Assembly (NCBI GenBank): GCA_022823225.1
Contig: JAJDXM010000037.1
Location: 1 to 64,000, forward strand
DNA from: Gemmatimonadota bacterium
GTDB lineage: Bacteria; Gemmatimonadota; Gemmatimonadetes; Longimicrobiales; Gaopeijiaceae
DNA: 64,000 nt
Direction of reading: 5' to 3'
Part shown: one piece after another, positions 19,670-25,092 of the stretch
Layout: every line of letters begins with the position of its first letter
Position numbering within the stretch: the first letter of the stretch is position 1
Program-made: the position numbers and the translations under genes
Notes under the pieces: generated by a model
Told to the model about the DNA's origin: nothing
The model's input: only the letters and a program-made list of their open reading frames with translations
Databases searched by the model: none

Positions 19670-20776
19670 ATGAGTGAAACGCTGGAGGCGTTGATCGAGC
19701 AATGGGATGGATTGGGCGTCGTGGCGTCGTATCACGCGGGGACGGGCAGCTGGATCTTCATCGCGCTTCACGACGACACCCTGGGCCGGCCGACGGGGGG
19801 TTGCCGGCTCAAGACCTACGCGACGCCGGCCGAGGGCCTGAAGGACGCGATGCGGCTGGCCGAGGGAATGACCTGGAAGTGGGCCGCGATGGGGTTCGGC
19901 TACGGAGGAGGCAAGTCGGTGCTGGCGGTTCCCGGACCGATGCGCGGGGAGGCGCGGCGAAGTCTGCTCACCCGATTCGGGCAGATCCTCAACGTTCTGG
20001 GAGGTGCCTACCGCGTCGGCGAGGACCTGGGGACCACCCCGCGGGACATGGCGTTTCTGGCGGGAGTGACCAACAGCGTCGCGGGCTGCTCGGCGGGGAT
20101 CGAGGCGGGAGGTCACGCGGTCGATCCGGGGCCGTTCACCGCCGCCGGCGTGCACGAGGGGATCCTGGCTGCGCTGGCCCACATCGACGGAACCAGGGAC
20201 ATGAACGGCCGCACGGTGCTGGTCCAGGGGGCCGGTGACGTGGGTGGCCCCCTTGCGCGGCTGCTGGGTCGCTCCGGGGCGAGGGTGCTGGTTTGCGACC
20301 TGGATGCCGACCTGGCGCGGACGGTGGCCGAGGAGTGTGGCGGCGGGGTCGTGGAGCCCCTGGCGGTTTACGAGACGCCGTGCGACGTGTATGCCCCCTG
20401 TGCGATCGGCGCGACGGTGAACCGGCGCACAATCCCCGTGCTGCGGTGCAGGATCGTTGCGGGGTCGGCCAACAACCAGCTCGAGACGGCGGAAGACGCC
20501 CAGCGTCTTCGCGAACGCGGCATCCTCTACGCGCCGGACTACGTCATAAACGGTGGAGGCGCGATGGCCTTCGGGCTGATGGAATCCGGAATCTCGGATT
20601 CCGGCGAACTGGAACGACGGGTCCGGTCGATCGGTCGGACGCTGACCCGGATCTTCCGGGACGCGGACGACCGGGGGATCGCCCCGACCGAGGCGGCGCG
20701 TGCGCTGGCTCTGGCGACACTGGCGGAGGGGCCCCGGGATGTAGAGATTCAGGTAACAGGAGACGCTGGCAGATGA
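19670..20776 (+). CDS. Leucine/phenylalanine/valine dehydrogenase family enzyme
   Basis: The 368-residue enzyme has the Glu/Leu/Phe/Val dehydrogenase fold. Lys70 (GMTWKWA) and Lys82 (GGGKS) stand 12 apart, like the two active-site lysines of leucine dehydrogenase. A Rossmann domain follows with VLVQGAGDVGGPLARLL for NAD. The reaction is reversible oxidative deamination of a branched-chain or aromatic amino acid to its 2-oxo acid and ammonia. The family glycine motif GG(T)R is GGCRLKTY here, so residue 45 is Cys instead of Thr. ATG 19670 follows GGAGG. The stop overlaps the next start (ATGA), which begins a run of co-directional genes up to 25797. Confidence 0.9.
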   Translation: MSETLEALIEQWDGLGVVASYHAGTGSWIFIALHDDTLGRPTGGCRLKTYATPAEGLKDAMRLAEGMTWKWAAMGFGYGGGKSVLAVPGPMRGEARRSLLTRFGQILNVLGGAYRVGEDLGTTPRDMAFLAGVTNSVAGCSAGIEAGGHAVDPGPFTAAGVHEGILAALAHIDGTRDMNGRTVLVQGAGDVGGPLARLLGRSGARVLVCDLDADLARTVAEECGGGVVEPLAVYETPCDVYAPCAIGATVNRRTIPVLRCRIVAGSANNQLETAEDAQRLRERGILYAPDYVINGGGAMAFGLMESGISDSGELERRVRSIGRTLTRIFRDADDRGIAPTEAARALALATLAEGPRDVEIQVTGDAGR

Positions 20777-21396
20777 ACACGAACCGGAGACTGCCGGGGA
20801 CCGGGGAACGGGTTCCCGCTGACACGCGGGCGGCGATGCGCGCCGTCCGGCGGGCGCTGCTGTTCCCGGTCGCGATCATCCTCCTTGCGGCCCCCGCCGG
20901 GCTTCAGGGACAGTGCCCCGGCTCCGGCGGATCGGACGAGGCGGCGTTCCTTCGCGCGGTGGGCGAGCATTTCTCGGTCCCGCAGCAGGAGGTCATGGTG
21001 CTGGCCCAGTGGAAGCTCGCCCCGGGCGAGATACCGGTGGCGCTCTTCCTGGCCGAACGCGCCGGAGTCTCCCCGGACGTGGTCATCTCGCAGAGGCGCC
21101 GGGGCGAGGGCTGGATGGCGATCTCCAGCGAGTATTCGGTCCACGCGGGGGACTTCCATGTACGCATCGACGGCCACGCCGGCATTCTCGCCGACGCGTA
21201 CGAGCGCTTCAGTGCACGGGCCGCCAGCGAGTGGAACGAGATCGTGCTGTCGGACGACGAGGTTGTGGGATTCGTCAATGTGCGCTTCCTGTCGCGGCAC
21301 CTCCAGGTGTCGCCCGAGCGCGTAGCCCGCGAGCTGGAGGATGTGGACGGCGTGGTCGCCGTGTTCGTTCGCCTCAGGGGCAGTGGAGGTCCGTGA
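20773..21396 (+). CDS. Unrecognised exported or membrane-anchored protein
   Basis: I do not recognise this 207-residue protein. ATG 20773 overlaps the dehydrogenase stop. After a basic N-terminus comes a hydrophobic segment ([17 protein letters not shown]) ending near GQCPGSG; a Cys follows, but the preceding residues are not a clean lipobox. The mature part is mixed helix and strand, with [20 protein letters not shown] and [20 protein letters not shown]. The second of these resembles a short DNA- or peptide-binding-like helical repeat seen in some secreted proteins of unknown function. Its stop overlaps the nitroreductase start (GTGA), so it is coupled to both neighbours. A periplasmic accessory role is a guess. 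Confidence 0.72.
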
Positions 21397-22061
21397 CCGG
21401 GCCCCGCTTCCACCCGCTGGAATCCTGGGTGGAATACGCCCCCGCCGAGATGGAGCGGAGGGCGGCCGAGTTCCGCCGTGAGATCGCTCGCCGGCGGACC
21501 GTGCGCGACTTCAGCTCACGCCCGGTTCCCCGCCCGGTGATCGAGGAGTGTATTCGGGCGGCCGGAACAGCGCCAAACGGCGCGAACCACCAGCCATGGC
21601 ACTTCGTGGCCGTCACCGAACCGGAGGTGAGGGCCCGGATACGAGTCGCTGCCGAGGAGGAGGAGCGGGCCTTCTACGGCGGTGGAGCGCCGCAGGAGTG
21701 GCTGGACGCCCTCGCGGAGCTCGGAACCGACGAGCACAAGCCATTTCTGGAGACTGCACCGTTCCTGATCGTGATCTTCGCGGAGCGCTATCAGGAACTG
21801 CCCGACGGGCGGAGAGTCAAGAACTACTACGTCCAGGAAAGCGTGGGCATCGCCACCGGCATCCTCATCACCGCACTTCACCACGCCGGACTGGCTACGC
21901 TCACGCACACGCCCTCGCCGATGGGTTTCCTGAACGAGATACTCGGCCGGCCCCCGAACGAGCGTCCGTTCCTCATCCTGGTGGCTGGCTACCCCGCCGG
22001 CGACGCCCGGGTGCCGCGAATCACCAAGAAGCCGCTGGACGACATCGCCACATTCCTTTGA
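21393..22061 (+). CDS. Iodotyrosine-deiodinase-like FMN nitroreductase
   Basis: GTG 21393 overlaps the previous stop, and the product is 222 residues. FMN-binding features of the nitroreductase fold are present ([27 protein letters not shown]). The C-terminal half ([57 protein letters not shown]) is much closer to iodotyrosine deiodinases than to general nitroreductases. The active-site lid residues that bind the halotyrosine zwitterion are all present, as Glu91, Tyr95 and Lys116 with E-x3-Y-x20-K spacing equal to human Glu157/Tyr161/Lys182. I infer reductive dehalogenation of halotyrosine or a related aromatic amino acid, which fits the nearby amino-acid dehydrogenase. Confidence 0.85.
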
Positions 22062-22200: not shown

Positions 22201-24114
22201 ATGGGAGTAGACGTCGCACCGCAGACATCGCCGGAGGCGATCCGCAGATTCACGCGGGCATTGCTCAGGGATCTCCAGGCCATGGAGCGCATCCTTGACG
22301 AAGGGCTGATCGAGTCGGGCATACGCCGGTTCGGCGCAGAGCAGGAGATGTTCCTGGTCGACGAAGCGTGGAGGCCGGCACCCGTCGCGGTGGAGGTTCT
22401 GGATGATGTCGACGCCGAGCCCTTCACCACGGAGCTTGCCCGTTTCAACCTGGAGGCGAACCTGTCTCCGCGCGTTCTCGAAGGCTCCTGCTTTTCCGAC
22501 ATGAAGGAAGAGCTGGACGGCTACGTGTCCCGGGTGCGGGAGGCCGCTCGGCGAAGGGACTGCGAGGTTGTTCTGACCGGGATTCTGCCGACCCTGGCCA
22601 AGTCGGACCTTTCGCTGGACAACATCACGCCACGGGCTCGCTACTACGCGCTGAACGAGGCGATGAACCGGACCGGAAGGGGCCCGTACCGGCTTCGCAT
22701 CCGAGGGACCGACGAGCTCATGATCGAACACGATTCGGTCATGTTGGAGTCCTGCAACACGAGCTTTCAGGTGCACCTCCAGGTGTCGGCCGACGAGTTC
22801 GCCCACCACTACAACGTGTCACAGGCCTGCACCGGTCCGGTACTTGCGGCGTGCGTGAACTCACCGTTGCTCTTCGGGAGGCGGCTTTGGTCCGAGACCC
22901 GGATCGCGCTCTTCCAGCAGTCCCTCGACACTCGCAGCGCCGATCTCCACATGCGCGAGATGAGTCCGCGGGTCCGCTTCGGCGGGAGCTGGCTCGAACG
23001 CAGCGTGGTGGAACTCTTTCAGGAGGACATCGCCACCTTTCGCGTTCTTCTGGCCACCGAGGTCGACGAGGACCCGATCCGGCTGCTGGATGAGGGAGGC
23101 GTGCCCAAACTGAAAGCGCTTCAGCTCTTCAACGGCACCGTGTATCGGTGGAACCGGCCCTGCTACGGCATCTCGAACGGGAAGCCCCATCTGCGGATCG
23201 AGTGCCGGGTGCTCCCATCGGGCCCCACCACCCTCGACGAGATCGCGAACACGGTGTTCTGGATCGGGACCGTGCTGGGCGCCGCGAAGGAGTATCCCGA
23301 TCTTACCGAGCGCATGGACTTCGACGACGCGAAGAGCAACTTCCTGGCCGCGTCGCGTCTCGGCCTGAGGTCCGGGCTGGCGTGGCTGGATGGCCAGAGC
23401 GGTCCCGCCGACCAGCTGATTCTGGACACGCTGCTGCCGCTCGCTCGGCACGGGCTCGCCGACTACCCGCTGAACCCGGGCGACGTGAACCGCTACCTGG
23501 AGATCATCGAGGAGCGAGTGAAGGCGGGCGTGACCGGTTCGAGCTGGGCCGTCAGATCGCTTGGCAGCCTCAAGAAGGCCGGGACGCGCAGCGAAGTCCT
23601 GAGCGCGATCACCTCGGCCACCGTGCGGCAGCAGACGGAGGGCATTCCCGTCGCACAGTGGGAGCTGGCGAATCTCGAGGAGACCGGAGGCTGGAAACAC
23701 CACTACGTCCGCGTCGAGCAGTACATGACGACCGCGCTGACCACCGTCAATCAGGATGAACTGGTCGAGCTGGTCGCCTACCTCATGGACCTCCGCAACA
23801 TTCGCCACGTCCTGATCGAGGACAACGATCACCGGCTCGTGGGGATCGTCTCCTATCGGTCGATCCTGCGGCTCATGGCGCAGGGGCGCACCCAGGAGGA
23901 AGCCGAGAGCATGCCCGTCAGCGAGGTGATGGAGAAACACCCCATCACGGTCACTCCCGAAACCACCACGCTCGATGCGATCCGCACGATGCGCAGCCAC
24001 AGGGTGTCGGCGCTGCCCGTCGTGAAGCGCGGACAACTGGTGGGCCTCGTGACCGAAATCGACTTCATGCCGATGGCCTATCACCTTCTGGAGGAGAGAC
24101 TGGAGGGAGCGTAG
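22201..24114 (+). CDS. GCS2-type carboxylate-amine ligase with C-terminal tandem CBS domains
   Basis: ATG 22201 follows AAGGAGA, and the product is 637 residues. Residues about 20-450 form a glutamate-cysteine ligase family 2 domain (GAEQEMFLVD, TELARFNLEANLSP, CNTSFQVHLQVS, IECRVLPSGPTT). Enzymes of this fold use ATP to join the carboxylate of glutamate or a similar acid to an amine. Residues about 510-635 are two CBS domains (VEQYMTTAL..., MEKHPITVTPETTTLDAIR), which in other proteins bind adenine nucleotides and regulate activity. The substrates are unknown, and glutathione synthesis is only one option. The next gene, a deacylase-like protein, begins at the base after this stop, so the two products probably act together. 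Confidence 0.85.
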   Translation: MGVDVAPQTSPEAIRRFTRALLRDLQAMERILDEGLIESGIRRFGAEQEMFLVDEAWRPAPVAVEVLDDVDAEPFTTELARFNLEANLSPRVLEGSCFSDMKEELDGYVSRVREAARRRDCEVVLTGILPTLAKSDLSLDNITPRARYYALNEAMNRTGRGPYRLRIRGTDELMIEHDSVMLESCNTSFQVHLQVSADEFAHHYNVSQACTGPVLAACVNSPLLFGRRLWSETRIALFQQSLDTRSADLHMREMSPRVRFGGSWLERSVVELFQEDIATFRVLLATEVDEDPIRLLDEGGVPKLKALQLFNGTVYRWNRPCYGISNGKPHLRIECRVLPSGPTTLDEIANTVFWIGTVLGAAKEYPDLTERMDFDDAKSNFLAASRLGLRSGLAWLDGQSGPADQLILDTLLPLARHGLADYPLNPGDVNRYLEIIEERVKAGVTGSSWAVRSLGSLKKAGTRSEVLSAITSATVRQQTEGIPVAQWELANLEETGGWKHHYVRVEQYMTTALTTVNQDELVELVAYLMDLRNIRHVLIEDNDHRLVGIVSYRSILRLMAQGRTQEEAESMPVSEVMEKHPITVTPETTTLDAIRTMRSHRVSALPVVKRGQLVGLVTEIDFMPMAYHLLEERLEGA

Positions 24115-25092
24115 TTGAAGGAAGGGGGCGATGGCCTCATCGGATGGGTGGAGGGCGCATCGGAAGGTCCGCTGCTGCTTTGCTTCGGTGGCGTCCACGG
24201 AAACGAACCCGCCGGGGTACGCGCGCTGGAAGCGATGGTGGACACGGTGCGGGCGAGATCCGGCGTGCTGACCGGCGACTTTGTGGCCGTTGTGGGCAAT
24301 CGTCCCGCGCTCGCAGCCGGGCAGCGGTTCATTGCATATGACCTCAACCGCGCCTGGACACCAGAGTTTCTGGGGGCGCTGGAGTCCCGCGGCGATGGCG
24401 CCTCGGCCGACGGAGCGATCGCTGCCACCAATTCCCGGCGGGTCGGAACGCCCGCACGGGAGGACCTCGAGGTCCTTCGGGTGCAGGGGCTTCTGGAAGA
24501 AGTTGCCGCCCGGCGGCGGGGTCCGGTGTACGTGCTCGACCTGCACTCCACTTCAGGACGGGGCGGCACTTTCACCTCGACCGACGACCGACCCGGCCAC
24601 CGGGCCTTTGCCCGGGAGATCCCGCTTCCCATGGTGCTGGGCCTCGACGACCACCTCCGGGGTACGCTGCTGAGCCACCTCAATCGGCTCGGTTACACCA
24701 CGGTGCTGTGCGAATGCGGGCAGCACGGGGAGGCCCAGGCCGCGACCAGGGCGGTGGCGGCGATCTGGCTGGCCATCCGCGCGGCGGGTCTTCTCGGAGA
24801 TTCGGATGCGCCGGAGGCGAGGCGCGCGTTTGAGATGCTGCGGAATCTGACCGGCCATCTTCCCGGGCATCTCGAGGCGGTGTACCGTCACCCGGTGGAG
24901 GAACGGGACGACTACACCACGCGGCCCGGCTGGCGGAACTTCCAGCGCGTGCGTGCGGGCGACGTTGTCGGCGACGACCGGAACGGGGAAGTGGCGGCGC
25001 CCTGCAGCGGCATGCTGCTGATGCCGCTATACCAGCGCCTGGGCGAGGATGGGTTCTTTGTCGTGAGGGATCTGGCGGCGATTCGTGGGTAG
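24115..25092 (+). CDS. AstE/AspA family zinc deacylase (succinylglutamate desuccinylase/aspartoacylase-like)
   Basis: TTG 24115 follows the upstream TAG with no spacer, giving 325 residues. The zinc ligands of M14-like deacylases are visible: His28 and Glu31 in GGVHGNEPAG and His144 in LDLHSTSG. An arginine follows in YDLNRAW (residues 75-81), and the catalytic Glu is in LCECGQHGE. Such enzymes remove an acyl or amino-acid group from an amide nitrogen. The C-terminal beta domain (about 230-325) is like that of the aspartoacylase branch. Its pairing with an ATP-driven amide ligase suggests one makes and the other breaks the same kind of bond, or that the ligase product is trimmed. AstE of arginine catabolism is unlikely, as no other ast genes are nearby. 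Confidence 0.84.
   Translation: MKEGGDGLIGWVEGASEGPLLLCFGGVHGNEPAGVRALEAMVDTVRARSGVLTGDFVAVVGNRPALAAGQRFIAYDLNRAWTPEFLGALESRGDGASADGAIAATNSRRVGTPAREDLEVLRVQGLLEEVAARRRGPVYVLDLHSTSGRGGTFTSTDDRPGHRAFAREIPLPMVLGLDDHLRGTLLSHLNRLGYTTVLCECGQHGEAQAATRAVAAIWLAIRAAGLLGDSDAPEARRAFEMLRNLTGHLPGHLEAVYRHPVEERDDYTTRPGWRNFQRVRAGDVVGDDRNGEVAAPCSGMLLMPLYQRLGEDGFFVVRDLAAIRG

Follow-up and report, generated by a model that had tools for sequence, protein, structure and literature searches.

A conserved pair of genes for a divergent GCS2-superfamily ligase with CBS domains and a zinc deacylase in Gemmatimonadota and Planctomycetota

Introduction

Enzymes that make amide bonds and enzymes that break them are found together in several described systems. 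In putrescine utilisation, the ligase PuuA belongs to the GS-fold superfamily, and PuuD, which hydrolyses a gamma-glutamyl amide, belongs to the peptidase family C26. DoeB and AstE act as deacylases in ectoine and arginine catabolism, respectively. The likeliest earlier description of GCS2 gene neighbourhoods is the amidoligase survey of Iyer from 2009, where a pair like the present one may already be mentioned. In the ligase superfamily in question, the GhExE signature forms part of the Mg/ATP site (PMC2588565). The AstE fold is able to cut omega-linked amides, as seen with the CphZ-type enzymes, which carry the annotation succinylglutamate desuccinylase/aspartoacylase and hydrolyse beta-Asp-Arg (PMC10206079).

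The window considered here, 64,000 nucleotides of contig JAJDXM010000037.1 of a Gemmatimonadota bacterium (assembly GCA_022823225.1), carries a ligase gene and a deacylase gene of these general kinds, side by side. The initial annotation had described a GCS2 ligase with two C-terminal CBS domains, followed without a spacer by an AstE/AspA-type deacylase, and both the open reading frames and the Pfam matches agree with this description. The components are of known kinds, and the pair, as a unit, is apparently unnamed, as no description of a GCS2-CBS/AstE pair was found in the open-licence literature searched.

Architecture of the locus

The features of the locus are collected in Table 1. The ligase frame opens with an ATG and closes with a TAG (24112-24114) that directly abuts the TTG of the deacylase gene, a start supported by the GGAGG upstream of it. 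In relatives, the two genes are separated by approximately 30-275 nt, and the zero spacer is thus a peculiarity of this locus. A simple scan of the locus for sigma-70 promoters and terminators was uninformative.

Table 1. Features of the ligase-deacylase locus (positions in the window)
Feature	Position	Strand	Basis and remarks
Amino-acid dehydrogenase, Glu/Leu/Phe/Val (ELFV) type	19670..20776	+	Pfam; stop overlaps the ATG of the next gene
Protein with a hydrophobic N-terminal stretch, ~207 aa	20773..21396	+	Stop overlaps the GTG of the deiodinase-like gene
Iodotyrosine-deiodinase-like flavoprotein, nitroreductase fold	21393..22061	+	139 nt before the ligase gene
Ligase, divergent GCS2-superfamily carboxylate-amine ligase with two CBS domains	22201..24114	+	ORF, Pfam; 637 aa
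Pfam GCS2 match in the ligase	22333..23001 (residues 45-267)	+	E=9.5e-7
CBS1 of the ligase	23707..23880 (residues ~503-560)	+	Pfam; Asp of the ribose motif replaced, GIVSYRS
CBS2 of the ligase	23917..24069 (residues 573-623)	+	Pfam; G-h-h-S/T-x-x-D motif kept, GLVTEID
Shine-Dalgarno sequence GGAGG	24102..24106	+	Within the 3' end of the ligase gene, 8 nt from the TTG start of the deacylase gene
Deacylase, AstE/AspA-type zinc amidohydrolase	24115..25092	+	Pfam AstE_AspA_cat, E=3.9e-16; 325 aa

Upstream of the pair, three genes overlap successively by ATGA and GTGA. The amino-acid dehydrogenase and the deiodinase-like enzyme that the initial annotation had placed beside the pair are both recognised. 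The former is of the ELFV type, with the tryptophan dehydrogenase ScyB as its best NCBIfam model (225 bits, below the cut-off of 600), and the latter has as its best solved relatives 5ko7 (E=4e-72) and iodotyrosine deiodinases (E ~1e-46). The protein encoded between them matches nothing in Pfam or NCBIfam, and it is kept upstream of the ligase within the family. The deiodinase-like gene adjoins the ligase gene in several family members, some of which have no deacylase, and of the planctomycete loci, a single one has such a gene 5 kb or less from the pair (L139:12263-12898; 65% identical and about 2 kb away), possibly reflecting a shared transfer. The idea that all five genes form the exact set of a pathway does not hold, as the dehydrogenase, the exported protein and the deiodinase are confined to the genus or family and Planctomycetota keep only the pair; a five-gene pathway would be lineage-specific at best, and the dehydrogenase and the deiodinase were rejected as parts of a core module on the same grounds. 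As to the flavoprotein itself, a dehalogenating role is a candidate. The record or bin names of several relatives of the host genome suggest sponge metagenomes, and sponges are rich in brominated tyrosines.

The ligase

The catalytic part of the ligase spans approximately residues 15-488, and the two CBS domains follow C-terminally (two stretches in Pfam, E=2e-23). The protein passes the curated cut-off of PF04107 (GCS2), with 28.9 bits versus 21, relatives scoring up to 39.9 bits, and it presents the sole GCS2 match in the host genome (4.19 Mb). Its GhExE signature reads GAEQE (residues 45-49), with G45, E47 and E49 invariant in 99 of 99 homologues, indicating an intact active-site signature; E78, N83, E85, Q190, H192, R234, R257, R319, R332, E334 and R336 are likewise invariant in these homologues. 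In a profile comparison with an alignment of YbdK-type proteins, residues 43-423 were aligned (E=6.6e-5, probability 64%), placing E334 and R336 on the corresponding strand. An hhalign comparison with Escherichia coli YbdK alone gave no significant match, nor did a profile search of PDB sequences with the catalytic domain yield a credible one. An AlphaFold2 model built with 25 relatives reached a pLDDT of only 48.7, too poor for active-site inspection or a fold search. Judged by its sequence, the protein belongs, as a divergent member, to the carboxylate-amine ligases of the GS fold, and it probably joins two small molecules through an amide bond at the expense of ATP.

Members of this clade are automatically annotated as glutamate-cysteine ligases. 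A plain enzyme of this kind, serving glutathione or gamma-glutamylcysteine and accompanied by an unrelated deacylase, would fit with the ligase being the only gene of the GCS2 family in the genome. However, the ligase falls far short of every glutamate-cysteine-ligase model: it scores 15.7 bits and its relatives 16-24 bits against TIGR02050 (YbdK-type; cut-off 176.4), and the relatives score 17-20 bits against TIGR03444 (EgtA; cut-off 370.8). In addition, glutathione synthetase (PF02955) has no match in the host genome, while BshC, of bacillithiol synthesis, is present (E=4e-74; G000:C76:23193-24284, locus L163). Among 58 genomes of the family, only three show a PF02955 match with E<1e-48, the weaker matches in the others probably representing other ATP-grasp proteins, and most of the ligase-bearing relatives are without a strong GshB match. 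With these scores and this genome content, and with the adjacency to the deacylase conserved (see below), a plain glutamate-cysteine ligase is very unlikely, and the separation of the ligase from that enzyme, already implied in the initial annotation, is upheld.

The nucleotide-ribose motif of CBS domains is kept in CBS2, where, among 89 homologues, 86 show S/T and 79 show D at the respective positions, and its Asp is lost in CBS1. This pattern is compatible with one putative nucleotide site, in CBS2, through which the ligase may be gated.

The deacylase

The deacylase passes the curated cut-off of PF24827 (59.6 bits versus 25). It possesses the zinc residues H28, E31 and H144, the residues R71, D76, N78 and R79 of the DLNR region and the catalytic E200, all conserved in 60 of 60 homologues, save for N78, conserved in 59. 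At the same time, it scores below the cut-offs of the NCBIfam models for AstE (33.8 bits versus 305.7), for the desuccinylase subfamily (34.8 versus 170) and for aspartoacylase (35.3 versus 180). The AlphaFold2 model is of good quality (pLDDT 87.8), and a fold search with it returned DoeB/EutE as the best match (Z 24.5), followed by AstE-type structures, aspartoacylase and CphZ (Z 18-24). The protein is probably a zinc enzyme cutting an amide bond. It ends at 25092, while most of the relatives outside the genus run on for about 55 conserved residues, with a consensus like FWLxVSxxLRR...WLPGV...LFHLLGFR.

Conservation of the pair

Examination of gene neighbourhoods, proposed in the initial annotation as a check, reveals that the pair is conserved. 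All 22 ligase-bearing genomes of the host's genus possess the deacylase gene directly downstream, one further member lacking both genes. Among 249 genomes of Gemmatimonadota, 59 ligase genes are of the CBS type, here meaning that the frame is of sufficient length to cover the CBS domains, and 45 of these are directly followed by a co-oriented deacylase gene, the adjacency spanning five family-level groups. The coupling had been said to be in doubt if homologues of the ligase were scattered without the deacylase, and such homologues do exist, including the remaining 14 CBS-type genes (the deacylase being found elsewhere in the genome in 4 cases and not found in 10) and all the CBS-less relatives examined, so that the coupling stands for the majority of the CBS-type genes and not for the CBS-less ones. 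Conversely, nine genomes of one genus encode the deacylase and no ligase. As each gene is found alone, neither strictly needs the other.

Similar observations can be made for Planctomycetota, the phylum of a match from Phycisphaerae (L055). Of the 294 genomes sampled, 66 encode the ligase and 52 the deacylase; the two occur together in 46 genomes, against an expectation of about 12 under independence. The deacylase gene adjoins 35 of the 68 ligase matches, the non-adjacent count taking in some fragments and matches close to the ends of contigs. The only neighbours conserved across 20 planctomycete loci are the two genes of the pair themselves, antisense shadow frames aside. In one locus (L120), the ligase gene is followed at a distance of 96 nt by what looks like a nitrilase-superfamily amidohydrolase gene, where the deacylase gene usually sits; the nitrilase superfamily was not adopted as a third hydrolase partner, this being one case judged by eye. 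Matches in a plasmid collection came from Actinomycetota, plus a weak one from a haloarchaeon.

Pairwise distances between ligases correlate with those between the adjacent deacylases (r=0.59 versus a permutation maximum of 0.23, 37 pairs). In a tree of 99 ligases, a supported branch sets the CBS-bearing sequences apart from the others, and the sequences of Gemmatimonadota and Planctomycetota are intermingled, which suggests transfer between the phyla. The adjacency counts are not independent: mapped on this tree, adjacency requires a minimum of 13 gains or losses, and well-supported branches force 5 of these. The adjacency is thus either old or repeatedly regained, and often lost. It is not due to chance, and the retention of the two genes as neighbours by many bacteria from both phyla argues for a real functional unit.

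A weaker kind of connection would be shared regulation only, the two enzymes acting on different substrates of one physiological state, such as nitrogen or osmotic state, and being neighbours for the sake of co-transcription. The occurrence of each gene alone in some genomes speaks in favour, as does the lone deacylase of one genus, positioned at a site syntenic with the ligase loci of a related genus. We nevertheless consider this improbable, as the adjacency holds across two phyla while all the other neighbours are scrambled. The syntenic site in question (L158:6850-8088) has redoxin and membrane-protein neighbours in common with the ligase-only loci L142 and L144, which looks like the loss of one or the other gene from a common ancestral pair.

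A sister branch with a different hydrolase

A CBS-less ligase, matched over about 480 aa, is encoded in seven genomes of another Gemmatimonadota family, none of which has a deacylase of the present type. In all six assessable loci, a gene for peptidase C26 (PF07722, 2e-64) is positioned directly upstream of the ligase gene. Four of the six also contain a second GCS2 gene, of the true YbdK type, and three contain a weakly matched gene for a circularly permuted ATP-grasp protein. In loci L156 (1718-8905), L166 and L168, an operon-like arrangement of the ATP-grasp-like gene, the YbdK-type gene, the C26 gene and the CBS-less ligase gene looks like a small peptide-synthesis system.

One ligase family is thus associated with two unrelated amide hydrolases, the zinc deacylase adjoining the CBS-type and C26 adjoining the CBS-less enzymes. 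Our best hint, an argument from context, is that the hydrolase acts on the type of bond that the ligase makes, and that the product is an omega-amide; the C26 partner points to a product of the gamma-glutamyl type.

The same data bear on two other explanations. One is a sequential pathway, in which the deacylase would free an amino or carboxylate group from an N-acylated precursor and the ligase would then turn the freed compound into a different amide, in one direction and with no cycle. The best fold matches of the deacylase, DoeB/EutE and then AstE-type enzymes, deacylate catabolic intermediates, and adjacency fits consecutive steps equally well. However, no other conserved pathway gene lies beside the pair in Planctomycetota, and pairing of the CBS-less ligases with a structurally unrelated amide hydrolase is a better fit to an antagonistic or recycling partner, making a sequential pathway rather unlikely, if worth serious attention. 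The other is gamma-glutamyl protection as in putrescine utilisation, with the ligase gamma-glutamylating an amine, other enzymes modifying the conjugate and the deacylase releasing the product. The superfamily of PuuA and the C26 membership of PuuD are in line with it, as is the presence of C26 beside the CBS-less ligases, and the deiodinase-type flavoprotein adjoining the ligase in the host's family could act in between. This flavoprotein, however, is not conserved outside the family, nor is any oxidase or dehydrogenase conserved beside the pair elsewhere, and we regard such a scheme as quite unlikely.

Proposed function

We tentatively propose, with somewhat less than even confidence, that the two genes form a module by which an omega-linked amide, for example gamma-Glu-X or beta-Asp-X, is conjugated and deconjugated, with the ligase regulated through CBS2. 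The conserved adjacency, the correlated distances, the C26 partner of the CBS-less branch, the precedent of CphZ, the GhExE signature and the CBS2 motif all support this reading. The occurrence of each gene alone and the lost Asp of CBS1 speak against it, and the adjacency by itself would fit a cycle or two one-direction steps alike. The ligase would activate a carboxylate with ATP, probably the side chain of Glu or Asp, and join it to an amine or an amino acid. Bonds of this kind, omega-acyl amides whose amine side bears a free alpha-carboxylate, would be hydrolysed by the deacylase. The two CBS domains, most probably through CBS2, would adjust the activity of the ligase on binding of an adenine nucleotide or of some other small ligand, keeping making and breaking from running together as a futile cycle. 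In this scheme we infer the substrates, the reversibility, the single bond common to both enzymes, the sensing of nucleotides and the control by CBS. A bolder version, which we consider doubtful, is of a hitherto undescribed, horizontally mobile two-gene switch, with a nucleotide-gated GS-fold ligase putting an amino acid or an amine into store in the form of an omega-amide conjugate, from which a dedicated zinc isopeptidase releases it when the energy or ionic state changes; in that case, the conjugate could be a nitrogen store, a compatible solute or a signal.

Overall, the pair marks an uncharacterised clade of amide ligases, here in two phyla, that is annotated as glutamate-cysteine ligase against genome content. 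Once identified, the conjugate would reveal whether an undescribed small-molecule store or signal exists in Gemmatimonadota and Planctomycetota.

Comparison with known systems

The GCS2/YbdK ligases (PF04107, TIGR02050, including EgtA) share with the host ligase the GhExE metal/ATP signature and a full-length profile alignment (E=6.6e-5, probability 64%), but the host enzyme has a catalytic domain longer by about 100 residues, carries two CBS domains and scores far below the family cut-offs. The deacylase shares the fold (Z 18-25) and all the zinc and catalytic residues with AstE, aspartoacylase, DoeB and CphZ (PF24827), differing from AstE and aspartoacylase in its scores below the NCBIfam cut-offs, and many of its relatives differ further in the C-terminal extension of about 55 aa, which is absent from the host's genus.

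As to the complete systems, in cyanophycin metabolism (CphA, cyanophycinase, CphZ) an ATP-dependent amide ligase is likewise clustered with an omega-dipeptide hydrolase of the AstE family (PMC10206079). However, CphA is an ATP-grasp enzyme making a polymer, while the host ligase is of the GS fold and carries CBS domains, and no cyanophycinase was noticed with the host pair. PuuA and PuuD also combine a GS-fold amide ligase with an amide hydrolase, and the CBS-less relatives adjoin C26, but the host pair employs a zinc deacylase, without the oxidase and dehydrogenase steps. In pupylation, a GS-fold ligase of the GCS2 lineage, PafA, is opposed by an amide hydrolase, Dop (PMC2588565). No small tag protein was seen with the host pair, and while Dop is itself a GS-fold homologue, the hydrolase of the host pair is an unrelated zinc enzyme.
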